NCBI RefSeq assembly: GCF_001306145.1
Contig: NZ_LGKO01000005.1
Location: 496,001-560,000 of the forward strand
Direction of reading: 5' to 3'
Origin: Thermanaerothrix daxensis
GTDB taxonomy: Bacteria; Chloroflexota; Anaerolineae; Anaerolineales; Anaerolineaceae
DNA: 64,000 nt
Positions 39,559 to 61,131 of the stretch are shown here, in pieces. The translations under genes and the position numbers were made by a program. The notes beneath the pieces were generated by a model. The model was not told the DNA's origin and ran no database searches. It worked only from the letters and a program-made list of their open reading frames with translations. Position 1 is the stretch's first letter; every line of letters begins with the position of its first letter.

Positions 39559-42279
39559 CTAGAGTTCCTCCCTGCGCTCATGGCCGTCATTGTCTGTTGG
39601 GGATTCGTTGAGGAGGGAACGACTTCTAAAAGGGTCAGAGGGCGGCGAAGGGGGCGTAATTCGGATGTTGACCCGCTGGGCTCCCAGCGCCCGCCCAATT
39701 TCAATGGCCGAGGTCTGGAGGATGTTTCCCACGTCAGTCAATGTGCGGATCTTGCTGGTGATCTCGTATAGGTGGCGCTGGCGTTCTGCCTGAACCTGGA
39801 TTTGGCGAACCAGGCGCGCGTTGGTCAGGACAGCAGCCAGGTTGGTAGCAAAAGTGGCGAACATTTCCTGATCCCTTTCGTCGAAAGCCGCAGGCCGCTC
39901 CGATTCGATGCAGAGCACCCCCAGAATCTCGTTTTGATAGCCAATGGGCAGTGCTAGCGCTGAACGTGCACCTGATGCCAGAGGCTGGAATTTCCCTTCG
40001 GGGGTGAACTCGCTAATTCGCAAAGGCTGCCGGTTTGCGGCTACCCAACCGGGGATCTCTTCGCCTAATTGCCAGAACACTCGGGAGAGCACATCGGTCT
40101 CATAACCGGCATGGGCTTTCAGTTCCAGTACTTGTTCGCGATTGAGCAGGAAGATCGCAAGGCGTTCCGCGGGCAAGGCCTCATGCAGGCCACGGAGAGA
40201 TTTTTCGATAATCTCTTCAACCACCAGACTGCCAGACGCCTCAGAAATGATCTGGTAGAAAAGGCGCTGCTGGTTAAGGTTCTGCTGAGTACGGGTGTAG
40301 AGTAGGGCATTATCCAGCGCGATTGCTAGCAGGCTGGCGAGGGTTTCCAGGATTTGTACATCTTCAGGCTGGAAAGCATCATAGGAGCGACTTTGCACAT
40401 CCAACGCTCCCAGCAGGCGGTCTCCTACTCGGAGGGGTACCACAATTTCGGAGCGGGTTTCAGGTAACAATGGGTTGGGATAATAATCCGGGTTTCCCTG
40501 AACGTTGTTGGCAACAATGGTGCGTCCCAATGCAGTGGCCTGACCCACCAGTGAGCGCGAACCAACGGCCAACTGATGCCCAGATTGTTTCATGATTTGC
40601 CCAATTTCGCCCGAGGCCTCTTGCAAAATGGCATATCGCCCAAGTGAGTCCAAAAGGAAAATCGAGGCGTGGTAATATCCCAGGCGTTCACGTATCTGGT
40701 TAGTGGCATTTCGGAGCATGAGGTCTATGTCGCGGGCGCTGATGGCTTCACGCGCGATCTCAGCCGAGGCCAGGAGCTGTTCGGCGCGGCGCTGGGCCAG
40801 TTGCTCGGTGCGGATGTATTCGCTGATGTCCTGGGCAATGCGAATCAGACGGGCGCTTTTCCCATCAGGCGTGGGAATGGGAATGCGTGACACCAGTTCC
40901 CACACATTCTCGCCTTGTAGGCTGAAGTAGTAGTTAGGGGTGTTAACTCGAGCCTCACCTGATTGAATCACTTCAAGGTCCTGGGCCAAATCCAGGCTGC
41001 CCATCTCTCCCCCCAGGTCTATATCCGTTTTGCCCGTAATTTGGGCGAGCGAATCCACCCCGTAGTGGCGTAGAAGAGCCTGGTTGGCGTATAAAAAGCG
41101 CCCTTCTGCATCTTTAATGGCAATACGCTCTGGCAGGCTTTCTAACAGCGTAGTTAGGAGAATGTGTTCCTGTTCGGCGTGACGTTGACCTTCCTCAACC
41201 TCCAATTGCAGGCGGTGGGTTTGAATCGCCCAGGCCACCAGAGGGGCTACGCCCTCTAGTGTGTGCTTGGTGTTTTCATCGAATCGGGCTTCGTGGTGCA
41301 GGTCCTGGAGGATGAGTGCACCGAGCGCTTCGTCTCCCCAGAGCACCGGAACACCTAGCCAGGACTTGGCCGGAGTGCCGATCAGGCGAACCCCCAGCGT
41401 GCGAGCAGTTTCTTCCACGTCATGCGTGATCAACAAGGGGTGTTTGTGGGTGATAATGTAAGAAGTAAGCCCCTCGCCGAGGGGGAGCGGATCCACCCTT
41501 AAGGGTTGGCCGTTTTCAAAGAGAGCAGGGAAGGTAATAACCTGCTGGTCGGAGTCCAGGAGCGCAAGAGCGAACGACAGGTCCGAACCGAAATGGTCAT
41601 GGATAAAATTGGTGAGAGCAGCATAGAAATTGGAGGGGGATGTTAGCGTTGGAAAGCAAGTTTTAAGGAAGGCTTCCGCCAAGGTGTAGAGCGACTCGGT
41701 GACCTCAATTTTTTGCGGCTTGGGGGTGCGAGGTTGTCTGGGTTGTTCAGGGGGATGGATCAAAAAACTTAAGGCCAGTTGGTCGGCCAGAGTGCAGAGC
41801 ACATTATAAAGGGCAGGAGGAAAGGCGTTTTTCTGCCCCGATTGTACATCCAGCACGCCATAAACCTGTGCGCCCGCTATCAAGGGGATGACCAGGATGG
41901 ATTGGGCATCGTTCCAGATATGATCCATTTGACGGTGCGGATTGTCGGCTTCCAAATGGGGGATGTAATAAGGGCGCTGGTTGGCGATAGCCCATCCGAA
42001 CAAAGTGTCGGAATGGATAGGGACGTGCACCTGGTGAAGGGGAAATGTGTTCGGTGCAGGGGTTTGAATTGCTCTTAAGGCAACCGAGGTTTCGTTTGTT
42101 TCCAAGACGTATACAGCCACATGGGGGATATTTAACCCCTGGGCAATTTTGTGTACGGCGCTGGACAGGAGTTCTTCACAATGGTTGACCACCGCAATGA
42201 TGCGGGCAACTTCTGAGATCACCTGGGTGTAGGGTAGAGGGGTATGGAGGGTTTCTTCTAGCGTTGATTCTCCGCTCAT
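39559..42279 (-). CDS. Soluble GAF-GAF-PAS-GAF-GAF sensor, no kinase
   Basis: The 906-residue product lacks membrane segments. GAF domains lie at about 30-170, 205-370, 520-680 and 690-850. A PAS domain lies between the pairs (about 385-505, 'ERIAIKDAEGRFLYANQALLRHYG' region). The third GAF has 'LGYYHASIFLLDSLGRYAILQEA' and 'LLPETRSEIVVPL', the motif shared across the operon. The C-terminus repeats the 'LTDVGNILQTSAIEIGRALGAQ' helix found in the other sensors. With no transmitter domain of its own, it probably works by assembling with the hybrid kinase. It lies 22 bases after the receiver gene at 42302. Confidence 0.83.
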   Translation of the reverse strand: MSGESTLEETLHTPLPYTQVISEVARIIAVVNHCEELLSSAVHKIAQGLNIPHVAVYVLETNETSVALRAIQTPAPNTFPLHQVHVPIHSDTLFGWAIANQRPYYIPHLEADNPHRQMDHIWNDAQSILVIPLIAGAQVYGVLDVQSGQKNAFPPALYNVLCTLADQLALSFLIHPPEQPRQPRTPKPQKIEVTESLYTLAEAFLKTCFPTLTSPSNFYAALTNFIHDHFGSDLSFALALLDSDQQVITFPALFENGQPLRVDPLPLGEGLTSYIITHKHPLLITHDVEETARTLGVRLIGTPAKSWLGVPVLWGDEALGALILQDLHHEARFDENTKHTLEGVAPLVAWAIQTHRLQLEVEEGQRHAEQEHILLTTLLESLPERIAIKDAEGRFLYANQALLRHYGVDSLAQITGKTDIDLGGEMGSLDLAQDLEVIQSGEARVNTPNYYFSLQGENVWELVSRIPIPTPDGKSARLIRIAQDISEYIRTEQLAQRRAEQLLASAEIAREAISARDIDLMLRNATNQIRERLGYYHASIFLLDSLGRYAILQEASGEIGQIMKQSGHQLAVGSRSLVGQATALGRTIVANNVQGNPDYYPNPLLPETRSEIVVPLRVGDRLLGALDVQSRSYDAFQPEDVQILETLASLLAIALDNALLYTRTQQNLNQQRLFYQIISEASGSLVVEEIIEKSLRGLHEALPAERLAIFLLNREQVLELKAHAGYETDVLSRVFWQLGEEIPGWVAANRQPLRISEFTPEGKFQPLASGARSALALPIGYQNEILGVLCIESERPAAFDERDQEMFATFATNLAAVLTNARLVRQIQVQAERQRHLYEITSKIRTLTDVGNILQTSAIEIGRALGAQRVNIRITPPSPPSDPFRSRSLLNESPTDNDGHERREEL

Positions 42280-42301
42280 AGACGGCCGCTTTCTAAGAAA
42301 T

Positions 42302-42787
42302 TCAACTTAATTCCCAGACAGATTCGCCGTTAAGGATGCGCTTAATCTGGTCGGGGAAGCGATCAGGATCCAGGGGCTTGCCCAAGAAGCCGTCAAAGCC
42401 GGCCTGGCGGGCTTTGTTCATTTGCTCCAGGCTGGCTTCTGCGGTAACGGCTACTACGGGAACGTTACGAAACCGGGGTGATTGACGAATCTTGCGCAGG
42501 GCGCCGTACCCATCCTCGTAGGGCAGGCGAATATCCATCAAAATAAGGTCCACCTTGGGCAATGAATCGGCGAACTCAGCCACCTCATAGCCTGAGGTTT
42601 TCCATTCACAATGAACCCCTAAATATCCCAGGAGACGTGCAATCAAAACAAAGTTGGAAACATTGTCCTCAACAACCAGCACCACCGTATCTTTGGTCAA
42701 AGGGCGGGTGCCGTGAGTTTGGCGAATGGAAAGCGGCGTTTGAGCCGGGTTTTCAGGTGAGGCGGTGGATGAAGCATTGGCATTCAT
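42302..42787 (-). CDS. Stand-alone receiver domain protein
   Basis: The 161-residue product has a roughly 35-residue polar N-terminus then one CheY-like receiver: 'LVVEDNVSN' (acidic pair), phospho-acceptor Asp in 'LILMDIRLPYEDG', 'AVTAEAS' and 'LGKPLD' (switch Thr and Lys). No output domain. It lies 4 bases after the first receiver gene and is a likely phosphate acceptor or shuttle for the hybrid kinase of this operon. Confidence 0.88.
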   Translation of the reverse strand: MNANASSTASPENPAQTPLSIRQTHGTRPLTKDTVVLVVEDNVSNFVLIARLLGYLGVHCEWKTSGYEVAEFADSLPKVDLILMDIRLPYEDGYGALRKIRQSPRFRNVPVVAVTAEASLEQMNKARQAGFDGFLGKPLDPDRFPDQIKRILNGESVWELS

Positions 42788-42791
42788 GTTG

Positions 42792-43178
42792 CTACTCCCT
42801 GTGGCCGTTTAGAAGAAATTCGGCGATCTGGTCGAGGAAGCGGTCTACATCAATAGGTTTTTCGATATAACCATCACAACCCGCTTGAAGGGTACGCTCT
42901 TTATCCCCGCGCATTACATTGGCGGTTAGTGCTACGACCGGCACCCCATGCAAGTGCTCCTGGGATTTGATGGTGCGGGTGAGGGTGTAACCGTCAATAT
43001 CCGGCATGTTGATGTCCATAAGAATCAGGTCCGGACGGTGGGCTTCAAGGATCCTGAGCGCCTCGGTAGCATTGGCGGCCTCAAGTACGTTATAACCGCT
43101 GGCTTGCAGCAGCCGCCGCACAAGGGTGCGATTATCCAGGTTATCTTCGACATAGAGGATGGTTTTCGGTGTTCCCAT
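42792..43178 (-). CDS. Stand-alone receiver domain protein (DivK-like)
   Basis: The 128-residue product is a bare receiver: 'LYVEDNLDNRTLVRRLL', phospho-acceptor Asp in 'LILMDINMPDIDGY', 'ALTANVMRGD' and 'IEKPIDVDRFL', which closely resembles DivK-type single-domain regulators. It is the first gene of the minus-strand signalling operon. Confidence 0.9.
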   Translation of the reverse strand: MGTPKTILYVEDNLDNRTLVRRLLQASGYNVLEAANATEALRILEAHRPDLILMDINMPDIDGYTLTRTIKSQEHLHGVPVVALTANVMRGDKERTLQAGCDGYIEKPIDVDRFLDQIAEFLLNGHRE

Positions 43179-43259
43179 GACTTGCGCCTGATTTATGGAA
43201 TAGAAAAGGGGAATGCCTTAAAAGCCACGGATGCCCTTAAAGGGGATGGTTTTCATAAA

Positions 43260-43265
43260 ATTATA
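43260..43265 (-). promoter_or_regulatory. -10 element of the signalling operon
   Basis: A perfect TATAAT on the minus strand (43265-43260) lies 82 bp before the first receiver ATG. I see no good -35 at 16-18 bp, so the promoter call is moderate. Confidence 0.4.
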
Positions 43266-43489
43266 GTGAGTTTTGCCTGGAGAAGTACCACTCCTTGCGA
43301 AACTGTAATGTAGTCGCAAGGTGTTTCTAACCGCTCACGGAAATTGCAAGGATTGTGCCGAAAGATTAGTGACCAAGGGAGAAAGTTGAACACAGGTTAG
43401 AGCATGCTGTGGTTGAGCCTAATGGCTTGGGTAGACTAAAAAACGTGCAGTTTGAGGTTGCGATTCGCGTGAGCGTATGCAAAGACATG
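43266..43489. other. Intergenic stretch before attL
   Basis: No gene seen between the signalling operon's promoter region and the hairpin next to attL. Confidence 0.4.
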
Positions 43490-43515
43490 AATACCGCCAT
43501 CTGCGTGGCGGTATT
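43490..43515 (-). terminator. Hairpin that originally followed tRNA-Gly
   Basis: A perfect 10-bp stem, AATACCGCCA/TGGCGGTATT, with a 6-base loop, 15 bp beyond attL. The tRNA-Gly is read on the minus strand, so before prophage insertion this hairpin lay just 3' of it. There is no good T-run; it may be a processing or termination hairpin. Confidence 0.45.
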
Positions 43516-43530
43516 TGAAATTATTAGAGT

Positions 43531-43562
43531 GGGCGACGGGATTCGAACCCGCGAATCTCAGC
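43531..43562. repeat. attL (32-bp core shared with attR)
   Basis: Identical to 61135-61166. Identity extends 6 bases leftward with one mismatch: T at 43530 against C at 61134. That position is in the tRNA acceptor stem, so this copy would no longer pair perfectly with the tRNA 5' half, as expected of a copy not under selection. Confidence 0.9.
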
Positions 43563-43721
43563 GGTAGGTTGATATTCATGGCTTCGGCTAATTTAACCTT
43601 CTAAGGTTGATGGTACGAATATTTCTTTTGCACTCTCTATTTATCCTCTGCAAACGTATAAATGGGTTGTTGACAACATGAGCTTCTGCTATTTTCGCAT
43701 TTTCCACCTCAGTTAACTGTA

Positions 43722-43741
43722 AATAGAAATTATGTTCTATT
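43722..43741. repeat. 20-bp dyad near the left prophage end
   Basis: AATAGAA-6 bp-TTCTATT, a perfect 7-bp inverted repeat in an AT-rich stretch between attL and the MuF remnant. It could be an operator or integrase-accessory site left from the deleted early region. A GC-rich hairpin, GAGCCGG-9-CCGGCTC, follows at 43758-43780. No intact gene lies between attL and the MuF frame. Confidence 0.4.
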
Positions 43742-43895
43742 ATCTATTAACACGCTTTGAGCCGGTTTCTCTTTCCGGCTCGGCGATTTGGTCTTGAAGG
43801 AGGACTTTTGACGCTCCACTTCGAAACGCAACAATTCAAGATACCGCCTTTGTTCGTCGGGTGGCAACTGCGAGAGCAGGTACAAGACTTCCCTC

Positions 43896-44741
43896 TTGAT
43901 ACTCAGTATCGGGGGGACGGGTGGCAGCAGCCCGGCGGCGCTGGAGTGGGCGCGTCAGAACGCAGGGAAGCTGGTTGCAGGGATCCTGCCCGATATACAA
44001 ACCGGTATCTCACAGATCATCACTGCTGGATTGAGCGAGGGCAAAACGATCTACCAAATCCGTGATGAGATTGCTCATCTGCACGAAGAGCCGGATCAAA
44101 CTATTTTCCCGGAATGGCGGGCAACCCGAATCGCGCGCACAGAGGTGATCCGTGCACATGCGCAGGGTGCAAAGTTAGGTTACCAGGAAAGCGGGGTGGT
44201 GCGAGGAATGCGCTGGCTGGATGGGCAAACCGGTGCCTGTCCGAAATGCCGTGAGTTGCACAATAAAGTTGTGCGTTTGGGTGAAACGTTTTATGTGGAT
44301 CCCAAATTCGGTGACGGGTTACCGCCGCGTCATCCGCATTGTCGTTGTGCAGTTGCGCCGGTGACGTTGGATGATGTGAAGTATCTGCCGGCGGATCATC
44401 CGTTGCGAGATAACCGGAGGAACAGCATTCAGGAACTGACTGATTGGCAAACTGTGACACAAATCAACGGTTTTATGATATCCGGTGAACGGCGCTGGCA
44501 TTATATTCGACGGCACTTTACGGGTTATGAAGGGAAGCCACCGCAGATAAAAGATCTGAAGCGGGCAGAAACCATGCTTGAGCAAATCCTTCAAGGCAAT
44601 TATGAGGGGATGAAATTGAGACGGGGCGCGATCGTTTATTATCGGGAATGGTCTCCGAAGTCATATCTTGTTGTCCCGGTGGTTGACGGGAAGGTTCGAT
44701 CACTTTATGTTAGAGAAAAAAGACAGGTTGATAAATGGTAA
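43896..44741 (+). pseudogene. MuF/SPP1-gp7-type head protein, frameshifted and 5'-truncated, with C-terminal extension
   Basis: The frame from TTG 43896 encodes the MuF (SPP1 gp7) minor head domain, seen in the helices 'ATRIARTEVIRAHAQGAKLGYQESG', the Cys pair 'CPKC' and the terminal 'PPRHPHCRCAV'. The natural start is missing. Upstream, another frame reads 'LTLHFETQQFKIPPLF...FPLDTQY' and joins this one if one G is removed from the GGGGGG run at about 43911. So the gene is frameshifted by a homopolymer and also cut off near attL. The last 95 residues go beyond MuF ('RRWHYIRRHFTGYEG...LVVPVVDGKVRSLYVREK') and resemble toxin-like extensions of MuF proteins. The sequencing-error alternative is open. 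Confidence 0.7.
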
Positions 44742-44832
44742 TAAAAAACCCCTTTCGGGGTTGGCGCCTGGGGGCCGGAAACTCCCCAGTCTTCCGCTTT
44801 CGCGGTATGCTCGTCCGGACTACATCCTCGCC
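44742..44832 (-). ncRNA. Candidate structured RNA 1, promoter to terminator
   Basis: A complete minus-strand transcription unit of about 91 nt lies between two plus-strand late genes. The promoter is TTGACA-17 bp-TATTAT. The terminator is AACCCC-GAAA-GGGGTT followed by TTTT (44762-44743). The predicted RNA has a closing stem GGCG/CGCC, an AGUC/GACU stem holding CCGC-GAAA-GCGG, and CUGGGG/CCCCAG. CCGGA in the first loop region can pair with UCCGG in the last loop, a possible pseudoknot. There is no open frame of note. I do not recognise the class. Pairing is by eye. Confidence 0.65.
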
Positions 44833-44838
44833 ATATCT

Positions 44839-44867
44839 ATAATAACAATTTTTAGGTGGATTGTCAA
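44839..44867 (-). promoter_or_regulatory. Consensus promoter of RNA 1
   Basis: Minus strand: TTGACA (44867-44862), exactly 17 bp, TATTAT (44844-44839). The -35 lies across the start region of the plus-strand gp10-like gene (ATG 44867), so the two transcription units overlap head to head. Confidence 0.7.
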
Positions 44868-45451
44868 TGAAAGTTTTACGCATTGAAGGATTGGATGAGA
44901 TTTTGAAATTCGTTGGGAAGACATCTAATCTCAATGACCAAATCTACGTTCCAATTTGGAACGCGATGGGACAAGCGGGCAAATTGCTGGAAGGCCAGAT
45001 CAAGCAAAACCTGACCGACAACGACAGCGTAGCCACCGGCGATTTGCGTGCCAGCGTGTCCTCGAGTGAAGTGCAAGTTACAAAAGATGCCATCTTTGTC
45101 GAAGTCGGCGCCGGGCGCGGTTTGCCGTACGCCAGAGCCGTTGAATACGGCTCGAAACCGCACACGCCGCCCTTGTCGATCACCGAACCCGGACAGCCTC
45201 TTTATGAGTGGGTGAGAATCAAACAGTTAGCCGCCACATACTCAGTACGAACGGGGAAACGATTGGGGAGCAAGGCCAAACAGATTGACGAGAATCGCCA
45301 AGCGGCGCGGGCCGTATGGGCAAAGATTCGCAGATCGGGAACGAAACCCCATCCGTATTTCGAGCCGGCGCTGGATCGGACACGGGACAGGATTGCTAAG
45401 TTGTTCGAGGAAGCAGTGGATAAAATCATCGATCAAATTAAAAAGGCTTGA
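44867..45451 (+). CDS. HK97-gp10-like head-tail/tail-completion protein
   Basis: The 194-residue product has the gp10-like pattern: an N-terminal helix, 'GDLRASVSSSEVQV', 'FVEVGAGRGLPYARAVEYGSKPH' and the C-terminal 'PHPYFEPALDRTRDRIAKLFEEAVDKII'. Such proteins sit at the head-tail joint or serve in tail completion. ATG 44867 has AGGTGG about 8 bases upstream; TTG 44861 is less likely. Its place before the protease and capsid genes is unusual, since gp10-like genes normally follow the connectors. Confidence 0.75.
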   Translation: MKVLRIEGLDEILKFVGKTSNLNDQIYVPIWNAMGQAGKLLEGQIKQNLTDNDSVATGDLRASVSSSEVQVTKDAIFVEVGAGRGLPYARAVEYGSKPHTPPLSITEPGQPLYEWVRIKQLAATYSVRTGKRLGSKAKQIDENRQAARAVWAKIRRSGTKPHPYFEPALDRTRDRIAKLFEEAVDKIIDQIKKA

Positions 45452-45477
45452 CTTTCGTAGTGAATCTGTTCTATAAT
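45448..45477 (+). promoter_or_regulatory. Strong promoter before RNA 2
   Basis: TTGACT (45448-45453), 18 bp, perfect TATAAT (45472-45477), starting right at the stop of the gp10-like gene. A transcript would start near 45484. Confidence 0.7.
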
Positions 45478-45483
45478 ACAAAC

Positions 45484-45634
45484 AACAAACGAGCGCGGAA
45501 GCGCAGGCTGTGAGCCGATTCTGTGGTAGAGCCCGGATAGGCAAGCAGTAACACTCTCAACGAGTCCGGTAGAGCCGGCGAGAGTAAGTGATACCCAAGT
45601 CATGGGATTACTTAGTCTCGCCGGTTTTTGTTTT
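45484..45634 (+). ncRNA. Candidate structured RNA 2 ending in a long terminator hairpin
   Basis: The gap between the gp10-like and protease genes carries a roughly 150-nt unit. Inside it are GCGC-GGAA-GCGC (45493-45504), GGCU-GUG-AGCC (45506-45516), CCGGA...UCCGG enclosing ACUC-UCAAC-GAGU, and two copies of GGTAGAGCC. It ends in a long near-continuous hairpin, CCGGCGAGA (45575-45583) with TCTCGCCGG (45616-45624), then TTTTTGTTTT. It could be an independent small RNA or an attenuating leader for the capsid genes; the protease ribosome site directly follows the U-run. Confidence 0.6.
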
Positions 45635-45646
45635 GGAGGTTTGAGT

Positions 45647-47005
45647 ATGCCATATCCAAACGAACATGCTGCTAGGCTGGTTGATCCAAGCCGCTTTGAA
45701 GAGGATTCATTCCGGCGGGTCAACGATAAATTTGGAGAAGGTATTCATGCTATTTTCGGTAGGTTAAAGGGCGAGGACTCATTAACTTTGCAGGCGATCC
45801 GCTTTGATGCGGATAAGTTTAGCGCCGAAGAGGCACGGCAGTGGTTGAGGGATCATGACTACCAACCGCTTGAGTTCGAGGAAGCCACGAACGAAAACGA
45901 AGCGGAAAAAAGCCTATCCTATTTCATCCCGCTGCAAAAGGTCATCGAGGCGCGCCGTGAAGTCTGGGGAGTGGCTGCAATCGAACAGCCTGATATGAGC
46001 GGGGAGATCATGGACTACGCCAAATCGAAGCCACACTTTTGGGCGTGGTCGAAACGGGTGCAGAAAGCCAGCCGCGGCAGGTCCTACGGCAACGTCCGCG
46101 ACAGCCATACCACCAGGGCGGTTGGCAAAGTCATCAAGATGATTTTCGATGATGCGGCGAAGGCCATCCGGGTCGGGGTAAAAGTCGTGGACAGCGAAGC
46201 CTGGCAAAAGGTAGTAGAGGGCGTATTTACCGGTTTTTCCATCGGCGGCCGATATGGCGAACGTTGGGAAGACCCGATAAACAAAGGTTATGTGCGCTAT
46301 GAAGCCATCCCGAATGAGATATCACTGGTAGATCTGCCCTGCATACCCGGGGCAACTTTCGAAGTCATCAAAGCGGATGGCAGTCGAATTGTTACACCAA
46401 TACTCAGTATGAAGGGAGTTGCGATGAAAGAACGGATTTTGAAACTACTCAAACAAGATGAGGGCAAGGAACTGGATGAAGAAAAAATCCAGGAAATTGC
46501 CGAAGAGATTGTCGCGATGCTGGAAGAACGATCCACGGCGAGTGAGGACGACAGCGGGAACGCAGAGGATGCAGTCGAAAGCGAAGAAACCCCGGAGGAC
46601 GGGGAAGAGCAGGTGGCTGAAGAGCAGCCCAAAACGCTGACGGCTGATGATGTGCGTGAGATCGTCTTATCCATCCTCGCCGAATTCGGATTGATCGAGC
46701 GGGTTGGATCCGATATGCAGCTGAGCGCTCGCATTCGCGGGATGGCGAAGTCCAAGAGTCAAATCGAGCAGCTTGTGCGAGATGTGGCGAAACTGGCTCT
46801 TGAAGTGGAAGCCCTCAGCAAACGCGGCGCAAGCGGGCCGGTTTTGCGTGAAATCGGATCATTGACGCCGCAGGCCAGCGCGGCACTGCAGAAAGCCGAG
46901 GTTTTGAAAGCGGCTTTGCAATCGGTAACCGATCCGCTGGCACAGCAGGCGTTGCGTAATGAAATTGCGCGCCTGGAAATTCAAGCCATTCAAACCAAGT
47001 CGTAA
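45647..47005 (+). CDS. Prohead protease with C-terminal scaffold domain
   Basis: The 452-residue product has an N-terminal half resembling XkdF-like/prohead protease proteins ('AEKSLSYFIPLQKVIEARREVWGVAAIEQPDMSGEIMDY', 'HTTRAVGKVI', 'VFTGFSIGGRYGERW', 'YEAIPNEISLVDLPCIPGATF'). From about 260 on, it is acidic, Glu-rich and helical, as scaffolds are. The protease would cleave scaffold and capsid during head maturation. ATG 45647 has TTGGAGG about 7 bases upstream; the apparent longer start at 45602 lies inside the terminator hairpin and is rejected. An internal scaffold start is listed separately. Confidence 0.78.
   Translation: MPYPNEHAARLVDPSRFEEDSFRRVNDKFGEGIHAIFGRLKGEDSLTLQAIRFDADKFSAEEARQWLRDHDYQPLEFEEATNENEAEKSLSYFIPLQKVIEARREVWGVAAIEQPDMSGEIMDYAKSKPHFWAWSKRVQKASRGRSYGNVRDSHTTRAVGKVIKMIFDDAAKAIRVGVKVVDSEAWQKVVEGVFTGFSIGGRYGERWEDPINKGYVRYEAIPNEISLVDLPCIPGATFEVIKADGSRIVTPILSMKGVAMKERILKLLKQDEGKELDEEKIQEIAEEIVAMLEERSTASEDDSGNAEDAVESEETPEDGEEQVAEEQPKTLTADDVREIVLSILAEFGLIERVGSDMQLSARIRGMAKSKSQIEQLVRDVAKLALEVEALSKRGASGPVLREIGSLTPQASAALQKAEVLKAALQSVTDPLAQQALRNEIARLEIQAIQTKS
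46424..47005 (+). CDS. Nested scaffold protein (internal start in the protease gene)
   Basis: Inside the protease frame, AAGGGAG (46412-46418) precedes ATG 46424 by 5 bases and begins a 193-residue segment that is almost wholly acidic and helical ('LLKQDEGKELDEEKIQEIAEEIVAMLEE', 'EALSKRGASGPVLREI'). This matches the lambda C/Nu3 arrangement, in which scaffold is made from an in-frame internal start. An exact copy of the prophage palindrome (46399-46411) abuts this ribosome site. Confidence 0.65.
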   Translation: MKERILKLLKQDEGKELDEEKIQEIAEEIVAMLEERSTASEDDSGNAEDAVESEETPEDGEEQVAEEQPKTLTADDVREIVLSILAEFGLIERVGSDMQLSARIRGMAKSKSQIEQLVRDVAKLALEVEALSKRGASGPVLREIGSLTPQASAALQKAEVLKAALQSVTDPLAQQALRNEIARLEIQAIQTKS

Positions 47006-47015
47006 GGAGTTTGTT

Positions 47016-48503
47016 ATGATCGAAAATCTGTCTCAATTGACCCAACAAGCAATTGCCGAATTCAAGAAGGCACTTGCTCAACCAATGGACCCAAACGCGC
47101 TGAAAAAGGCGGGGGTCACCCAAGCAACCGGGCTGGTTGCCTATGACCTGCAAGCGCCGGCCAAGAATCTGTTCCCGGTTCTGACTCCCATTCGCAACCG
47201 CACCCCGCGGGTTTCCGGCGGTGGCGGTACGTCAACCAACTGGAAAGCGGTTATTGGGATCAATACGGCCGGCTTGCGAGGGTTTGTGCCGGAAGGCGAG
47301 CGGAACGGCGTGATTACCACGCAAGTGGTGGATAAAAGCGCTCCTTATCGTACCCTCGGCCTTGAGGATAGCATTACTTTCGAAGCCGAACGTGCAGCGG
47401 TGGGGTTTGAAGACATTCGCGCTACTCAGGCACAGCGGTTGCTTTGGGCAACGATGATCGAAGAGGAACTTGCCGATTTGGGAGGCAACTATTCGGTTGC
47501 TTTGGGAACGCCGGACGCCCCCACGGTAACCACCGATAGCACGGGAGGCTCTATTCCTGCCGGTACGTACAATGTGATCGTGGTGGCTTTGACTCTGTAC
47601 GGTTACCTGGCGTCCTCCGTAACCGGTGGTGTAGTCGGACAAGTCAGCGTTACCCCGGCCGGTGGCGGTTCGGCGTTTACCTACGGCGGTGGTTCATCCA
47701 ATAAATCCAGCCCAACCAGCACCGGCGTGCTGACCGGTTCAACCAATGTCATCAAAGCCAGCGTCCCGGTTGTGCCCGGCGCGGTGGCATACGCCTGGTA
47801 TGTCGGGACCAGTGGCAACGAGCTTTTACAGGCGATTACCACGATTAACAGTGTGGTCCTGACCAGTTTGCAGACCTCTGGCCGTCAGAATGCCAGCGAG
47901 ATTACTGCCGACAACTCCAGGAATTTGCTCAGTTACGATGGCATTTTGTATCAGGCCTGGGCAAGCGGTTCGGGCGCCTACATCAAAAATATGCCCACCG
48001 GCACGCCCGGCAGCGGTACGCCCCTCACAGCGTCCGGCGATGGCGGTATCGAGGAGATCAACGAAATGTTCCGCTGGATGTGGGACAATTACCGGATATC
48101 TCCGACGCGCATTTACGTCAACGCTCAGGAAGCGGATAACATCACCAAGAAAGTTCTGACTGCGTCTGCTGCGCAGATTCCCTATGTAACCGGTTCGGAG
48201 TTCACTGCCGGCATGCGGGTGAAGAGCTTACTCAACCGCTTTGCAATGGGTGTTGCGCCGGAAGTGCCGCTGGAGATCCACCCGAATATGCCGCCCGGCA
48301 CGCTACTGGCGGTAACGGAGCAGCTGCCGTATCCTTTGAACGGTGTACCCAATGTGATGGAGATGCGTTTGCGTCAGGATTACTATCAGATCGAATGGCC
48401 GCAGCGCACGCGGAAGTACGAATCGGGCGTCTACTTCGACGGCGTGTTTGCCCACTACTTCCCACCCTCCATCGGGATCATCACCAATATCGGCAACGGC
48501 TAA
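47016..48503 (+). CDS. Major capsid protein (HK97 fold) with internal Ig-like insertion
   Basis: The 495-residue product starts 'MIENLSQLTQQAIAEFKKALAQP' and has HK97-type features: an N-arm, 'LFPVLTPIRNRTPRVSGGGGTS', 'ERAAVGFEDIRATQAQRLLWATMIEEEL' (spine helix) and a P-domain-like C-terminal half ending 'FDGVFAHYFPPSIGIITNIG'. Residues about 165-300 ('PDAPTVTTDSTGGSIPAGTYNVIVVALT...AYAWYVGTSGNELLQ') read as an inserted Ig/fibronectin-like surface domain. AAGGAG lies 8 bases before ATG 47016. The gene follows the protease by 10 bases. Confidence 0.88.
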   Translation: MIENLSQLTQQAIAEFKKALAQPMDPNALKKAGVTQATGLVAYDLQAPAKNLFPVLTPIRNRTPRVSGGGGTSTNWKAVIGINTAGLRGFVPEGERNGVITTQVVDKSAPYRTLGLEDSITFEAERAAVGFEDIRATQAQRLLWATMIEEELADLGGNYSVALGTPDAPTVTTDSTGGSIPAGTYNVIVVALTLYGYLASSVTGGVVGQVSVTPAGGGSAFTYGGGSSNKSSPTSTGVLTGSTNVIKASVPVVPGAVAYAWYVGTSGNELLQAITTINSVVLTSLQTSGRQNASEITADNSRNLLSYDGILYQAWASGSGAYIKNMPTGTPGSGTPLTASGDGGIEEINEMFRWMWDNYRISPTRIYVNAQEADNITKKVLTASAAQIPYVTGSEFTAGMRVKSLLNRFAMGVAPEVPLEIHPNMPPGTLLAVTEQLPYPLNGVPNVMEMRLRQDYYQIEWPQRTRKYESGVYFDGVFAHYFPPSIGIITNIGNG

Positions 48504-48512
48504 TTTGGTAAT

Positions 48513-48541
48513 GGGGAGGGGCTCGGAAGGGTCTCTCCCCC
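48513..48541 (+). terminator. GC-rich hairpin after the capsid gene
   Basis: GGGGAG and CTCCCC arms bracket a GC-rich loop, directly after the capsid stop. No T-run follows, so it may be an mRNA-stabilising or attenuating hairpin rather than a full terminator. Confidence 0.35.
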
Positions 48542-48554
48542 TGGTTGAGGTTTT

Positions 48555-48785
48555 ATGAAGTACCGGGTATTGGGGAACCTGTACAGCGTCGGCCGAGGCG
48601 ATTTCGTTGCCTATGTCGAAAACGGGCAGATTGAATTGCCCGAAGATCTTGCAGAAAGCATGATCGACACCGGGGTAATCGCACCCCTCGATACTGAGTA
48701 TGTTGTGGTGGAGCAGGTAACGAATGGATTACACAACGATCGCGGCAGTCAAGCGCGCACTCGGCAGCGGCGAAAACGCGGATGA
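48555..48785 (+). CDS. Small phage head-region protein
   Basis: The 76-residue product reads 'MKYRVLGNLYSVGRGDFVAYVENGQIELPEDLAESMIDTGVI', a small beta-strand domain often found between capsid and connector genes. I cannot name the family. It overlaps the next gene by 62 bases and carries an exact ATACTGAGTAT palindrome near its end. Confidence 0.55.
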   Translation: MKYRVLGNLYSVGRGDFVAYVENGQIELPEDLAESMIDTGVIAPLDTEYVVVEQVTNGLHNDRGSQARTRQRRKRG

Positions 48786-49287
48786 TGTCCTGCTTACCGA
48801 GTTGATCACCCAGGCAAGTCGGGCTATTGACCGGTATTGCGGAGGGGGTGATAACTATTTTGTGCGGGAGACGCTTTCCGATGTACTCCTACAAGGATTG
48901 ATCTCCTCTGATGGGGTTTTGTGGTGCTGGCCGCCCAAACCGGTTATCGAGAACGTCTCTTATCTGGCTTATCGGATTTCGGCCCGAGAGGACTGGCGCG
49001 AGCTCAATCCTGCTCATGCTGAAGTATTCAAGAATTCGGTACTGTACCACGGTGTAGATGGAAAAGGAAAGGTGTGGGTAAAGATTGCCTTCACCGGGGG
49101 TTTCTCGCCTCTTCCGGATGACCTGGTGAATGCTGCCACATTGCTGAGTGTGCGCTTTTACAAAGAGATCAAATCCGGTTTGACGGACAGCATTGGGGTA
49201 GCCGAACTGGGCATGTTGCAGTACACCAAGGCCTTGCCGGAGCGTGTGCAGCTAATGTTGAAACCATACAAACGGGTTGTGTTATGA
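48724..49287 (+). CDS. Head-tail connector protein (gp6-like)
   Basis: The 187-residue product begins 'AAVKRALGSGENADDVLLTELITQASRAIDRYCGG', the typical helical N-terminus of gp6/YqbG-type connectors, and ends in a helix with 'LVNAATLLSVRFYKEIKSG'. Such proteins form the ring below the portal. It overlaps the preceding small gene and the following one (ATGA-type). Confidence 0.72.
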   Translation: MDYTTIAAVKRALGSGENADDVLLTELITQASRAIDRYCGGGDNYFVRETLSDVLLQGLISSDGVLWCWPPKPVIENVSYLAYRISAREDWRELNPAHAEVFKNSVLYHGVDGKGKVWVKIAFTGGFSPLPDDLVNAATLLSVRFYKEIKSGLTDSIGVAELGMLQYTKALPERVQLMLKPYKRVVL

Positions 49288-49742
49288 GTGATATCCAACA
49301 GCGGCTAGTAGATATCCAAAAGACAATAAGCGGCATCAAACGGGCTTATCTATGGGCGCCTCAATCGCTGGCCGATTCGGATTTGCCGATCTTTTGCACG
49401 TTTGCCGGTTCGGCAACGGTTGCCCCGATCGGTGAGATCTTGGCCGAAGAGACCCGTACCTGGCTCATGCGGTTGTACGTCAAACCGATCTTTCAGGGTA
49501 TTGATGGCGAAGCGGAAAAGTCGGCCGAGCCGTTTTTGACAAGTGTACGCGATGTATTTTTGTCGCATCCCTTGCTCGGGCGGGGGACGAAGGATTCTAC
49601 CTTGCCCTGGGTAAAGAAGGTTGTCTGGTTGGGCGATAATGGCATCCAGGTCTTGAACTATGCAGGTCAAAGCTATGTAGGGATCGAATTCAGGATTGCC
49701 ATTACGACAATCGTCCCGATCTCGATTGCATTTTACGAATGA
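49284..49742 (+). CDS. Neck/tail-terminator-type phage protein
   Basis: The 152-residue product has an N-terminal helix 'MSDIQQRLVDIQKTISGIKRAYLWAP' followed by alternating strands ('TWLMRLYVKPIFQG', 'GIEFRIAITTIVPI'). Position between connector and tail genes and length fit a tail terminator or neck protein. The family is not identified by motif, so this is context-based. Confidence 0.5.
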   Translation: MSDIQQRLVDIQKTISGIKRAYLWAPQSLADSDLPIFCTFAGSATVAPIGEILAEETRTWLMRLYVKPIFQGIDGEAEKSAEPFLTSVRDVFLSHPLLGRGTKDSTLPWVKKVVWLGDNGIQVLNYAGQSYVGIEFRIAITTIVPISIAFYE

Positions 49743-49755
49743 AGTGAGGTGAAGT

Positions 49756-50031
49756 ATGGAGATCATCAGCGAAGCAATGATAAACGGAATACCATTGGTG
49801 TTAGTGGTTCTGGGCCTTGTGGAGTGGTCCAAGCGTTTAGGTTTGTCCGGCAAGGCGCTCCAGCTACTCAGTATGCTGGTGGGGATTGTACTGGGTGTGT
49901 TGTATCAGTACAGCGTTTTCCCGCTTGTTACATTTGCTGAATGGTTCGGAGCCGTGGTATACGGCCTGGCACTTGGCCTGATTGCCAGTGGTGTATATGA
50001 TGCCGTCCGCAGTGCCGTTACTCGAGGGTAG
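49756..50031 (+). CDS. Holin-like two-helix membrane protein
   Basis: The 91-residue product has two hydrophobic segments ('GIPLVLVVLGLVEW' and 'LSMLVGIVLGVLYQ', the second continuing toward 'VVYGLALGLIASGVY') and a basic tail. It stands directly before an XhlA-like gene and a lysozyme gene, which supports a holin role: permeabilising the membrane at lysis. Confidence 0.68.
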   Translation: MEIISEAMINGIPLVLVVLGLVEWSKRLGLSGKALQLLSMLVGIVLGVLYQYSVFPLVTFAEWFGAVVYGLALGLIASGVYDAVRSAVTRG

Positions 50032-50032
50032 C

Positions 50033-50386
50033 ATGACCGCTGAAGAACGGGTTAGCAACATCAGTCTCCAGCGTCAGATATCTGCTTTATCTGCACGTCT
50101 TGACCAAGTTGCAGCCGACGTTGTGGAGATCAAAACAATGCTCAAAGACATTGAAGCCCGTGTGCGCAGGTTAGAGAACCATGAAGCCGGCAGCCATCCG
50201 TTGCTTGAAAACCGTCTGGATGCTGCCTGGCGCAAACTCGAGGAGCATGACAGGCGCATTGACGACCTTACACGCATCGTGACCAGGCTCGACCAGGCAA
50301 ACCGGTTGATGGCGTGGCTGGGTGGTATTCTGGGATCAACCGTTTTGATTTGGTTGATCACTCAGATCTTGCAGGTTGTGAGATGA
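50033..50386 (+). CDS. XhlA-like coiled-coil membrane protein of the lysis module
   Basis: The 117-residue product has a heptad-rich helix ('QISALSARLDQVAADVVEIKTMLKDIEARVRRLE') and a single C-terminal membrane anchor ('LGGILGSTVLIWLITQIL'), the layout of haemolysin XhlA-type proteins that accompany phage holins. Start ATG 50033 is directly after the holin stop. Its stop overlaps the lysozyme ATG. Confidence 0.65.
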   Translation: MTAEERVSNISLQRQISALSARLDQVAADVVEIKTMLKDIEARVRRLENHEAGSHPLLENRLDAAWRKLEEHDRRIDDLTRIVTRLDQANRLMAWLGGILGSTVLIWLITQILQVVR

Positions 50387-51246
50387 ACGCTTTAGGCTGT
50401 GATGTGAGCCACTGGCAAGGCGAGATCGATTTTGCCCGGATGAAAGAGGCCGGTGCTAACTTCGTGTTTCTCAAAGCCAGCCAGGCGGAGTGGACGGATA
50501 GGCGCTTTGTCGTCAACTATCAGGCTGCTAAACAAGCCGGCTTGCTGGTGGGTATGTATCACTATTTGGATTGGACGACGCCGGCAGACAAACAGGCTCG
50601 CTACTTCGCCAAGCTTATTCAGGATTACCCACCGGATATCGAACCGGTGCTGGACTACGAGGAGCGAAGAAAAGCACCGCTACAGCGAATAGCGATTGTG
50701 GCCGCAAGGGAATTCGTCGATATCGTCGAGGAAAATACCGGCAGGGTTTGCATGGTTTACACTTCACCGGGCTATTGGCACGAATACGGCAGCGATGCCG
50801 CGTCCTGGGCAGAGTGTCCACTGTGGATTGCGCATTATCGGGTATCGAAGCCCATCGTTCCGGCCCCGTGGAAAGATTGGCTGTTCTGGCAATATACGGA
50901 CCGCGGTGATGGGAAACAATACGGCGTATCGAGCGCGCAAATTGATTTGAATTGGTACAACGGAACGGTGGATGAATTGTTGGCCCGCTACGGAAGGCCC
51001 TCCCCGGAGGAGCAAAACGGCGAACCTGCCCGGCGCGCACCGGTAATGTTGCGTGCTGTATCCCGGGTTAATATCAGAAGCGGACCGTCTACAAGCCATG
51101 CGCCCCTCGGCATACTGAGTAGTGGAGAACGCATTGAGGTAATCGGCATCAAAGTCGAGAGTGCCCAGCGAGTCTGGATACGCCACGAGCGTGGTTGGAG
51201 TGCAATGGTCTATGATGGATTAATTTTGATGCAGGAAGTCTCATGA
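50383..51246 (+). CDS. Endolysin: GH25 lysozyme with C-terminal SH3 domain
   Basis: The 287-residue product has a GH25 muramidase domain (1-200: 'GCDVSHWQGEIDF', 'FVFLKASQ', 'YHYLDW', 'EPVLDYE', 'WQYTDRGDG'), which cuts peptidoglycan glycan strands, and an SH3-type wall-binding domain (about 215-287, 'VNIRSGPSTSHAPLGILSSGE'). It is the expected lysis enzyme of the prophage. ATG 50383 overlaps the upstream stop. Confidence 0.9.
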   Translation: MNALGCDVSHWQGEIDFARMKEAGANFVFLKASQAEWTDRRFVVNYQAAKQAGLLVGMYHYLDWTTPADKQARYFAKLIQDYPPDIEPVLDYEERRKAPLQRIAIVAAREFVDIVEENTGRVCMVYTSPGYWHEYGSDAASWAECPLWIAHYRVSKPIVPAPWKDWLFWQYTDRGDGKQYGVSSAQIDLNWYNGTVDELLARYGRPSPEEQNGEPARRAPVMLRAVSRVNIRSGPSTSHAPLGILSSGERIEVIGIKVESAQRVWIRHERGWSAMVYDGLILMQEVS

Positions 51247-51413
51247 AACCGAAATTCAACGAATCTAGATCCTGTCCGTTGTGTGGTAAGCCACTGGACC
51301 CTCACTACGAAGAAAAAGGGGTAATTCGGTACTTTTGTGACTGTGCGGGTTTCTCCCGCCCGGTAATCGAAATTCTACAAGAAGGAGTGAAGGAAGATGA
51401 CAGCGCCGATTGA
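51243..51413 (+). CDS. Small zinc-ribbon phage protein
   Basis: A 56-residue product, too short for many gene finders, with two Cys pairs ('CPLCGKPLD' and 'FCDCAGF') that form a likely zinc ribbon. It begins at the lysozyme stop (ATGA) and overlaps the tail-tube start by 17 bases, so it is translationally coupled on both sides. Function unknown. Confidence 0.7.
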   Translation: MKPKFNESRSCPLCGKPLDPHYEEKGVIRYFCDCAGFSRPVIEILQEGVKEDDSAD

Positions 51414-52206
51414 GAGAACTCTGAATTACGGATTGCGTTATGCATGCGTCTACGAGCTGGATAGCAACGGGTACCCCAAAGCCAGCGGTACTACTGCTTA
51501 TGAGGGGATACAGTTCAAGGGAGCAACGGCATTCGACCTGACGATTCCGGATGCGCGTAAGCTGACCGGTCTTGGAGAGGACGGCATCACCCAGGTTGTT
51601 TATCTCCCACCGCAGGAAGGTGTAGACGCCAGGTTAAACGTCGAGGCGGCCGACCCGGTACTGGCGGCGTTGCTGGACGGAACGAAAGTAGCCACCGTTG
51701 GAGAGGCCACTGTGGTGGGTGTTGCGACCGATAAACAAGGGTTCGAACCCCGCGTAGCACTGCTGCTCTATCAAGCCGCGAAGGGCCTGGATACCGGCAA
51801 GACCTACTGGCATAGTTTCATCATCCCCTCAGCACAAGTGGTTCGCAAGACTCCGGGTATGGGCGCAGACAAAGCGGTTACTCAGTATCAGGTGGCACCC
51901 AATCGGGTACGCAGACACCTATGGGGTGTGGAGTTCTCGAACAGTACCGAAGGCTTTTTGGAGGCCCAAATCTTGGAAGTTTGGAGCAATTACCCCTTGC
52001 GAATTGCTTCGTATCTGGGAGACGGTACTACGACATCCTTCAACTTCCCGGCGAACTTCCCGGCAGTGTCGACCGATGGGATCAAGGTCTGGAAGAACGG
52101 TGTAGAAGTTACTGCGGGTCTGACCAAGACGGTTACCGGGATCACCTTCACGACTGCACCGGCCAACAACGATGTGATTGTTGTTCTACGCGAGGTTGCC
52201 GGATGA
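51397..52206 (+). CDS. Major tail tube protein
   Basis: The 269-residue product has a tail-tube pattern: 'LRYACVYELDSNGYPKASGTTAYEGIQFKGATAFDLTIP', a middle with 'YLPPQEGVDARLNVEAADPVLAALLDG', and a C-terminal add-on ('GDGTTTSFNFPANF...VWKNGVEVTAG') that resembles a small bacteriophage surface or carbohydrate-binding domain. Its place directly before the chaperone pair and tape measure is the normal siphovirus order. GGAAG precedes the ATG. Confidence 0.75.
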   Translation: MTAPIERTLNYGLRYACVYELDSNGYPKASGTTAYEGIQFKGATAFDLTIPDARKLTGLGEDGITQVVYLPPQEGVDARLNVEAADPVLAALLDGTKVATVGEATVVGVATDKQGFEPRVALLLYQAAKGLDTGKTYWHSFIIPSAQVVRKTPGMGADKAVTQYQVAPNRVRRHLWGVEFSNSTEGFLEAQILEVWSNYPLRIASYLGDGTTTSFNFPANFPAVSTDGIKVWKNGVEVTAGLTKTVTGITFTTAPANNDVIVVLREVAG

Positions 52207-52807
52207 TCGTACAAATGACGGTTGACCGGGTAACAGTAGATTTGATCGTACGCCACGCAACGGTAGCCGATGCGATGGATCAAGCGCTGTTGGCCAATAA
52301 GGCTGCAGAGCATACCTATCGGAGCGATGCAGAACGAGCCGTAGCCGTGATGATCTATCCACGTTGCGTGGCGTGCACCCAGGGTACGGTGGAGATCGAC
52401 GGCCAAACAAAATCCGTGAAGGAACTTACCCCCCAAGAATTTTGCAGCTTGCCGTATGAAATCGGCGAAGCTTGGTTGCAAGCGGTTATCGAGGAAAATC
52501 CCGGCTGGGCATTACAGGTTGAGGAACAGACCTCGGAAAAAAAATTCTAGAAGTCGTCAGGCAATTAGAGCGATTTTATTGTTCTACATCTGCGGGGGAT
52601 TTTCCGGATGAATGGTTTGGCTTAAAGGAAATCCCCGATTGTGTTCTCGGTCAGGCGCTGGATATTTTGCTGGTACTAGAGGCTATTGAATGGAAATGGG
52701 ACATCCAAACCATCCTCAATCAACCGGATGATTTGTTAAGGGCTGTGTTACGGCTAAAGGCAATTGGTGAGAAATTGCGCCGGCAGCAGTTACAAGAGAT
52801 GGAGTAA
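52203..52807 (+). CDS. Tail assembly chaperones G and G-T (-1 frameshift)
   Basis: The frame from ATG 52203 ends at TAG 52550 (115 residues, G-type). Just before the stop lies a run of eight A (52537-52544). A -1 slip there leads into a second frame, open to TAA 52807 and encoding 'LEVVRQLERFYCSTSAGDFPDEWFG...LRRQQLQEME'. That region has no start or ribosome site of its own. This is the conserved G/G-T design of siphovirus tail chaperones and sits directly upstream of the tape measure, as in lambda. Confidence 0.85.
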
Positions 52808-53017
52808 CTTAAGTGCCCAGAGGGTGTGAATGATGGCAGACGGAGGTAAGCAGCATAAAGCAATGAGAATACCCGGATTTGGGAAATATACGGCAAGTCC
52901 CACAAGAAGGAACGACGTAATCAACAAGGAACCAAACCAAATCGTTCCGGCGTTTGTACTGTGGACTCCAACTTGATCATCATCCTGTGGTTCGTTCTTA
53001 AACCAACTGCTGTACAT
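52790..53017 (-). CDS. Reverse-strand two-TM membrane protein (moron-type), probably leaderless
   Basis: The 75-residue product has a short charged N-terminus and two membrane helices ('IWFGSLLITSFLLVGLAVYF', 'ILIALCCLPPSAIIHTLWAL'). It is the only minus-strand protein gene between head and fibre genes and has its own promoter: TTGCTT (53052-53047), 17 bp, TATACT (53029-53024), which puts the transcript start at the A of its ATG (53017). Position and independent expression fit a lysogenic-conversion or superinfection-exclusion gene. Function is inferred from context only. Confidence 0.6.
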   Translation of the reverse strand: MYSSWFKNEPQDDDQVGVHSTNAGTIWFGSLLITSFLLVGLAVYFPNPGILIALCCLPPSAIIHTLWALKLLHLL

Positions 53018-53023
53018 ACTTCT

Positions 53024-53052
53024 AGTATAGGTGAAATATGGATGAAAAGCAA
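53024..53052 (-). promoter_or_regulatory. Promoter of the reverse-strand membrane protein
   Basis: Minus strand: TTGCTT (53052-53047), 17 bp, TATACT (53029-53024). The -35 is inside the first codons of the tape-measure gene. The expected start point coincides with the ATG, so there is no ribosome site. Confidence 0.55.
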
Positions 53053-55131: not shown

Positions 55132-55132
55132 G

Positions 55133-55513
55133 GTGGCGGATTTCAAAATCGGTACCACTCTAAATGACATGGTCAACATTGAGTCCTTGAGTACGCCACT
55201 ACCCGTACCGCGAGCTATCTTTATCGATTACCCTGAACTCATCGTTGCGGCGAGTGGTCGATCGTACGGTCGAGGTTATCCCAGTTGTAAATGGATATTT
55301 TCATTGTTGACTTCTGAACAACGACAACAGCTGAAATCATTCTGCCCAGGGTCGTCATCGGTAGTCTATATTCGTACACTGACCAATGACGATACCTATG
55401 CTAACTATCAAGCCATTATACATTGGCCAGAAAATGAAGAGCGCGATCCGTCCAAAAGACGGGATCGATTAGAACTCACCGTCACGTTTACCCACTTGGT
55501 GAAACAAACATGA
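55133..55513 (+). CDS. Distal tail-type phage protein
   Basis: The 126-residue product starts with GTG 55133, chosen because TTTGGAGG lies about 7 bases before it at the end of the tape-measure gene. It reads 'DFKIGTTLNDMVNIESLSTPLPVPRAIFIDYPELIVAASGRSYGRGYPSCKWIF', a beta-rich small domain. Position between tape measure and the large tail protein fits a distal tail or tail-tip component. The family is not identified. Confidence 0.55.
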   Translation: MADFKIGTTLNDMVNIESLSTPLPVPRAIFIDYPELIVAASGRSYGRGYPSCKWIFSLLTSEQRQQLKSFCPGSSSVVYIRTLTNDDTYANYQAIIHWPENEERDPSKRRDRLELTVTFTHLVKQT

Positions 55514-58353: not shown

Positions 58354-58366
58354 ATCAGGAGCGACG

Positions 58367-61008: not shown

Positions 61009-61043
61009 AAAAACCTTCGACGGCTTTACTGATCAGCATAACA

Positions 61044-61125
61044 GGATGATATTCACTCCTTTCGCGCGGTATTCGGCGAAACCATGAATATCATCCTATT
61101 GATTTTGGCGAGGTTGATATTCGCG
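61044..61125. repeat. Integrase arm-type repeats beside attR
   Basis: Three TGATATTC copies: GGATGATATTCAC (61044-61056), inverted at 61082-61096, and direct at 61112-61125 (GGTTGATATTCGCG). A fourth, GGTTGATATTCATGG, lies at 43568-43582 on the other side of the prophage, 5 bp inside attL. Short direct or inverted repeats flanking the core on both arms are the usual arm-binding sites of tyrosine integrases. Confidence 0.6.
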
Positions 61126-61131
61126 AGTTAG

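Follow-up and report, generated by a model that had tools for sequence, protein, structure and literature searches.

Phage genomes carry several kinds of small structured RNA. The prohead (packaging) RNA of phi29, pRNA, forms a ring on the portal or procapsid through loop pairing between molecules, and the c4 antisense RNAs of P1 and P7 and the CI RNA of P4 are prophage-borne, roughly 70-80 nt long, built of stem-loops and involved in immunity. Rfam contains a pRNA family and a C4 family. Moron-type autonomous cassettes are defined by a promoter and terminator of their own, a position between phage genes and replaceability. RNA anti-CRISPRs (Racr) are reported to be short promoter-driven non-coding units of prophages that act in trans by mimicking CRISPR repeats (PMC10651486), and EHEC prophages are reported to encode anti-sRNAs (PMC4104026). 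Here we describe a putative small RNA gene in a prophage remnant of the window, the whole stretch of 64,000 nucleotides that was analysed.

The remnant spans 17.6 kb (43531 to 61166), is flanked by a 32-bp direct repeat (43531 and 61135) at the 3' end of a tRNA-Gly gene, and has an integrase gene (60094-61008) at its right end. It begins inside a 5'-truncated Mu gpF-like head gene (43896 to 44741, plus strand; Pfam PF04233), the 5' part being absent by comparison with the homologue in genome G004; in the G004 prophage, terminase and portal genes precede the gpF-like gene. The next gene, also on the plus strand, is HK97-gp10-like (44867 to 45451; tail completion / Neck1; Pfam PF04883, and PHROG 5 for the G004 homologue). 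The RNA is predicted on the minus strand between the two and is antisense in direction to these flanking late genes, as the first-pass annotation of the window had stated.

Read along the minus strand, 44742-44867 holds in order TTGACA, 17 bases, TATTAT, six bases, a 70-base core (GGCG...GCGCC), CCCC-GAAA-GGGG and a T run; the TTGACA-17-TATTAT promoter and GAAA-capped terminator that had been claimed here were thus both found. The -35 hexamer (44862 to 44867) reaches into the gp10-like gene by the first base of its ATG (44867), the -10 hexamer (44839 to 44844) is preceded by TG, making it an extended -10, and the promoter as a whole (44867 to 44839) matches 11/12 consensus bases. A promoter scan of 40000-58000 returned two sites at this level, this one and 45448-45477 on the plus strand; at the looser 9/12 level there were 16 sites against 15.2 expected. 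The intrinsic terminator (44742 to 44762) has its stem at 44762-44747 and abuts the stop codon of the gpF-like gene. As the -35 overlaps one gene start and the terminator abuts the other gene's stop, the unit occupies the whole gap between two head/neck genes. From the distance to the -10 and the end of the terminator we infer a 91-nt transcript (44742 to 44832, minus strand) that starts at G44832, the seventh base past the -10. It contains a single start codon, an ATG followed immediately by a stop, in keeping with the earlier claim of no coding potential, and a 74-aa mechanical open reading frame (44710-44934, minus strand) begins upstream of it. A coding gene was rejected on the grounds that the transcript lacks an open reading frame and that copies of the RNA measure 68, 70, 72 or 75 nt. 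Inspection of the letters confirmed 44742-44832 (minus strand) as a predicted autonomous non-coding unit consisting of promoter, 70-nt folded core and terminator.

Four helices were assigned within the core by segmentation and with a fold descriptor (all positions on the minus strand). P1 joins GGCG (44829 to 44832) to CGCC (44763 to 44766), and an extension by U44833-A44762 is possible. P2 joins AUGU (44822 to 44825) to GCAU (44807 to 44810) around loop 2, which contains CCGGA (44814 to 44818). P3 is the hairpin CCGC-GAAA-GCGG (44794 to 44805), and P4 joins CUGGGG (44784 to 44789) to CCCCAG (44768 to 44773) around loop 4, in which UCCGG (44775 to 44779) can pair with the CCGGA of loop 2. The GAAA tetraloop hairpin, the closing stem and the loop complementarity had all been pointed out before, and all were recovered. 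Across copies the core is 68-75 nt long and contains P1, P2, usually P3, and P4. From the 5' end, P1 (4-7 pairs) is followed by 2-3 nt, P2 (4 pairs) with a loop 2 of 11-15 nt, 1-2 nt, P3 (3-4 pairs, loop of 3-4 nt), 1-5 nt, P4 (5-6 pairs) with a loop 4 of 9-13 nt, and 0-1 nt before the closing strand of P1. The more constant part of the RNA, judged by eye, is GUGUAGU...GAGCAC around loop 2.

Relatives were sought in samples of genomes (1999 genome-searches in total, with many genomes covered repeatedly). A looser profile of 148 positions without structure, run over 396 genomes of the class, led to G004 (E 5e-4), where the corresponding gap of a homologous prophage holds, in the same orientation, an RNA of strongly diverged sequence; for this profile the best six matches over 33 non-self genomes were inspected by eye, and one (L101) was real. 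When 147 genomes of the family were searched with the gp10-like protein, eight loci were returned, seven of them (window included) at least 70% identical, and a gp10 alignment search of IMG/VR gave two additional loci, 72 and 77% identical to the first row, besides the window's own phage. The RNA unit was present in the gap between the gpF-like and gp10-like genes in 9/9 phage or prophage loci with a gp10 at least 70% identical (G000, the window genome; G004; G092; G051; G032, cut by the contig end; G027; G026; L127; L129). The RNA type varies at this same site, the gp10 proteins being 69-81% identical in the pairs compared, and in G027 two types follow one another in tandem, of which the first lacks its own terminator. 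Two kinds of ending occur, each marking a subtype: the window, L129 and the G004 type have a separate terminator hairpin, and in G026, L127 and the second G027 copy the T run comes directly after P1. In G027 the phage stretch (L125:1300-3477) stops at a tRNA-Pro gene, close behind a shortened gp10-like gene. No RNA unit was seen beside the distant gp10 of G050 (28% identical), and a gp10 profile run on 251 genomes of the order returned three known loci only. Phages and plasmids searched by BLAST with the RNA and with the G023 array described below gave no match, nor did named phages searched with the gp10 protein; viral pattern matches in L131 and L145-L149 were judged by eye to be chance.

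The next gap of the window holds a second autonomous structured unit (45448-45634, plus strand), in which TTGACT-18-TATAAT is followed by about 150 nt and a very long terminator hairpin just before a protease gene (fold z -7.2). It is kept in the same gap of L120, L122, L127 and L129, with both partners replaced in some sequence at 7/42 consensus pairs; G004 and G092 have a different leader at that place. No Rfam family reached threshold for this second unit, which may be a late promoter subject to attenuation.

Outside phage genes, the RNA was found six times in three genomes (once each in G195 and G146, four times in G023). BLAST of 201 related genomes gave a match at E up to 1 in 135, and the one strong match beyond the window was in G195 (E 3e-31; next best E 0.0016 over 20 bases), which belongs to the same order as the window genome and to another family. 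The two cores are identical at 67/70 bases; of the three differences, two together restore a single pair (the outer one of P3, C-G to U-A), and the remaining one falls in loop 2 but not in CCGGA. The RNA in G195 comes with a promoter and terminator of its own, and its flanks are not conserved. It lies on the same strand as a CRISPR array (L061:98-4190; 47 repeats at up to 2 mismatches), in the array tail, with a degenerate repeat on one side and the final repeat-like sequence on the other, and adjoins a gene resembling mobB by eye. The tail of a second array (L096) is similar and ends directly in a hairpin terminator.

The third copy, in G146 (E 3.6e-10, 51/70 bases), came from a two-sequence structural model run on 301 genomes of the order; the next match (3.7e-4) and one other inspected were no homologues by eye, and 38 genomes of the family of G195 held no further copies by this model. 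The G146 copy occupies a chromosomal gap in a region with rpoC and hrcA-grpE-dnaK-dnaJ (by eye), beside a gene with PMP repeats. It has no recognisable promoter, and its poor fold fails the descriptor, so it may be decayed. A query of the G004 type led to the four copies of G023, each with promoter and terminator, in an array (L142:5855-10232) that lies between a serine recombinase gene (beside tRNA-Asp) with an HTH gene and a helicase gene; the helicase, cut by the contig end, best matched PADLOC DruE3 (6e-44), with weaker matches to the DpdJ and BrxH models. Among 131 relatives searched with the 651-base array, only G023 itself and four known phage loci were returned. The gp10 profile found a match in 0/3 of G195, G146 and G023, an empty answer that is weak evidence. 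An 18-base pattern had 26 matches in genome contigs, none of them surrounded by this RNA as judged by eye. A pattern search of 396 genomes of the class that allowed up to 3 mismatches returned one more match, non-homologous by eye.

The promoter form TTGNNN-17-TANNNT with TGN before the -10 was present in 12/13 copies examined, G146 being the exception, and these 12 promoters match 9 to 11 of 12 consensus bases. The promoter spacers of the window and G195 agree at 6/17 bases and those of the window and L129 at 11/17, despite the more diverged RNA of L129. The window and G195 share the body and not the promoter, and the window and L129 have more of the promoter spacer in common; this suggests that RNA bodies may be swapped between elements as units. 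A promoter and a terminator of its own, a place between phage genes and replaceability, the marks of a moron-type cassette, were all found for the RNA.

Covariation was assessed on a segmentation made by eye after the RNA family had been seen. In seven types, 134 cells were paired, compared with 95.9 (sd 6.6) when the 3' halves were dealt among the types, and 0/20000 deals reached 134. The permutation left out S (G195) and F51 because they are near-copies of W (window) and F4 (G004), and the G023 copies were also absent. Pairing within and across the seven types was 0.94 and 0.53 for P1, 0.96 and 0.90 for P2, 0.96 and 0.67 for P3, and 0.95 and 0.55 for P4; with a cross pairing of 0.90, the nearly invariant P2 adds little to the covariation. 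P1 appears as GGCG/CGCC, GCGCUUG/CAGGCGC, UUGACAC/GUGUCAA, ACUCCGG/CCGGAGU, UACCGUA/UACGGUA and others. The loop 2/loop 4 pairs are CCGGA/UCCGG in the window, CUGGG/CCCGG in L129, CGCCC/GGGCG in G004 and CGGGG/CCCCG in G023 copy 1, with 4 pairs in the G026 type. Within a molecule 5, 4, 5 and 5 of 5 loop positions pair (window, G146, G004, L129), against a cross mean of 0.48. Loops of the G004 type pair at 0 to 0.2 with others, and those of the window, L129 and G146 mutually at 0.6 to 1.0; the specificity of the loop pairing is clear for the G004 type only. Over the helices and loop pairs of the permutation set, G.U pairs outnumber A.C mismatches by 11 to 3, as expected if the minus strand is the RNA strand. 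Compensatory changes in the stems and in CCGGA/UCCGG, which the first-pass annotation had named as a check on homologues, were found: the predicted helices P1, P3 and P4 and the loop pair change in a compensatory way. Taken across copies, this comparison showed a conserved, apparently autonomous unit whose predicted fold is under selection while its letters diverge.

The fold descriptor is mechanical, allows no helix mismatch and was likewise written after the RNA family was seen. Seven of the first ten sequences pass it; G146 and copies 2 and 3 of G023 fail. Dinucleotide shuffles reached the observed descriptor score in 0/3000 cases for each of nine sequences, namely the seven that pass plus the G195 and L127 copies, all of which have the descriptor fold (the three that fail were not shuffled). 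Over 14 copies there were 11 strict passes and 2 passes without P3, with G146 giving neither, and the opposite strand of these 14 stretches gave no strict fold. The best score on both strands of the 64-kb window fell on the RNA site (65), followed by 56, and the reversed window reached at most 54. Presumed chance matches in other loci reach 64, so the descriptor alone cannot find new copies.

The plain folding energies of the eight copies evaluated are only modestly unusual, with z from -0.1 to -3.6: window -2.2 for 99 nt and -2.6 for 91 nt, L129 -2.3, G004 -0.4, L127 -1.8, G026 -1.1, second G027 copy -3.6, and G023 copies 1 and 3 -0.1 and -0.9. The lowest-energy nested fold of the window has P1, P3 and P4, and an alternative pairing instead of P2. 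Nested folding favoured the cloverleaf in 0/7 copies evaluated; its energy against the minimum was -24.1 versus -28.1 kcal/mol in the window, -16.1 versus -27.3 in G004 and -20.4 versus -30.6 in G27b, and in the remaining four it lay 2 to 5 kcal/mol above their own minimum. The pairing between loops would contribute roughly 4 to 11 kcal/mol, penalties uncounted.

The first-pass annotation had recognised no class for the RNA, and our Rfam search likewise gave no family match. Against Rfam 15 the whole window yielded, at threshold, two tRNA genes elsewhere only. Low-threshold scans of the RNA site, seven further loci and the G023 array yielded one genuine neighbouring tRNA, the rest being far below gathering scores; sX7 over the G004 copy reached 22 bits against a gathering score of 55, and the best sub-threshold match, MIR156 in L127 (E 0.004), fell on the counterpart of the second unit at 45448-45634. 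No Rfam model of a phi29-type pRNA or a c4/CI antisense RNA matched the copies scanned. ARAGORN called no RNA copy a tRNA in eight loci, and with no tRNA model or ARAGORN match in the copies scanned a tRNA identity was rejected. Searches of open-licence full texts found no account of the RNA as described here.

These results would be explained by a new class of small structured RNA, an autonomous cassette carried by mobile elements, and we put the probability of this reading at about 0.5. Host polymerase would transcribe the RNA constitutively, in the lysogen as well, from its sigma70-type extended -10 promoter, in the manner of a moron cassette. Because copies exist outside the late operon, the RNA would act in trans, as a folded molecule. 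It would probably bind a protein through its constant parts, GUGUAGU...GAGCAC around loop 2, and the variable, self-complementary kissing loops may lock the fold, set specificity or mediate pairing between molecules. The settings in which it occurs, namely phages, the vicinity of a DruE-like helicase gene and the tail of a CRISPR array, suggest that it takes part in conflict or regulation among phages, other mobile elements and the host; neighbours in two loci (G023 and G195), too few for proof, point to a phage-defence setting. A more far-reaching view of its function is a tRNA-shaped kissing-loop RNA, an interchangeable trans-acting cassette common to temperate phages and defence islands (for the most part one copy per phage, four in a row next to a Druantia-like helicase, and one caught in a CRISPR array) that would serve as a decoy or inhibitor in conflicts of phages with the host or with each other. 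We hold this view tentatively, as one with the odds against it.

An antisense-type immunity or regulatory RNA like c4 or CI, whose loops pair with a short target and whose scaffold is a platform, would account for the loops being the most variable part, for different types at one locus and for the tandem types of G027. We consider it doubtful, as the loop sequences are largely explained by the complementarity of loops 2 and 4 and no copy scanned matched Rfam. Somewhat more doubtful is a tRNA mimic or decoy, a cloverleaf that occupies a tRNA-binding host or defence enzyme: helix and linker sizes are near those of tRNA and the loop contact recalls that between D-loop and T-loop, but the P3 loop has 3-4 nt, there is no CCA end, and tRNA searches came back empty for the copies scanned. 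A packaging or prohead RNA, with loops 2 and 4 pairing between molecules to form a ring on the portal or procapsid, agrees with the complementary loops and with a place in the head module, in the gpF-like/gp10-like gap of nine phage loci; the changes in the loop pair fit intramolecular and intermolecular pairing alike. Against it, large terminase and portal are of the ordinary kind in the related phage of G004, six copies of the RNA are found away from phages, and no Rfam match was obtained; we regard this role as improbable.

Silencing of the late operon in the lysogen by antisense action in cis is less probable again. The minus strand, the host-type promoter and the recurrence in the same operon of nine phage loci speak for it, but the predicted transcript is confined to the intergenic gap, and structure is kept on the RNA strand with no strict fold opposite. 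The first-pass annotation had offered late-gene silencing, and it is disfavoured as the main role because six copies, spread over three genomes, are located away from phage late operons; what stands of that reading is a predicted structured non-coding RNA gene of unrecognised class with its own promoter and terminator. Mimicry of a CRISPR repeat, as by an RNA anti-CRISPR, was tested because the window genome has two CRISPR arrays with repeats resembling those of G195, whose RNA copy lies in an array tail. The string shared with three repeats is only AAGAC, 1560-1653 of 2000 shuffles score as high, and G146, L129 and the G026 type have not retained AAGAC; the arrays of the window genome are about 375 kb away and on another contig. 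With up to 6 mismatches allowed, none of the spacers fetched from the arrays of G000, G195 and G001 had a counterpart in the window or in the four loci compared. We rejected the repeat mimic, and an RNA anti-CRISPR of this kind is very improbable. That the unit has no function, being a chance promoter with hairpins, is hardly credible: the promoter scan overall was at chance level at 9/12 and the fold energies are modest, but place and promoter form are conserved, paired positions change together, and shuffles failed in each of nine sequences to reach the descriptor score.

One phage lineage retains the RNA at a single site, and copies turn up again next to bacterial defence genes. Should it act in trans, it would offer a small, tractable RNA for the study of phage-host or phage-phage conflict, and a scaffold with swappable kissing loops would be a handle for identifying its partner. 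Phage head operons may conceal host-type antisense RNA genes.

Among known RNAs, tRNA is nearest in shape, with its cloverleaf topology, similar stem and linker sizes and a contact between the second and fourth loops. The RNA differs in having a 3-4-nt P3 loop and not a 7-nt anticodon loop, a terminator or T run after P1 in place of a CCA end, and loops joined by 4-6 standard pairs. With phi29 prohead RNA it shares a phage head setting and complementary loops, but it is a 70-nt cloverleaf that also has copies outside phages and comes from a lineage in which a related phage has an ordinary terminase. It resembles the c4 and CI RNAs as a prophage RNA of about 70-80 nt with stem-loops and a possible immunity role, and differs from them in its lack of an Rfam match and in having its own promoter and terminator. 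The anti-sRNAs of EHEC prophages reportedly act by base pairing with host sRNAs, whereas the conserved feature here is the fold and not an exposed seed. What the two have in common is that a small RNA is encoded in a prophage (PMC4104026). Racr units are likewise short, promoter-driven and non-coding and reside in prophages (PMC10651486); in contrast to them, our RNA does not resemble a CRISPR repeat and has a four-helix kissing fold. The RNA class is apparently new, matching no Rfam 15 family, and the newness we claim is that of the class and not of a mechanism.
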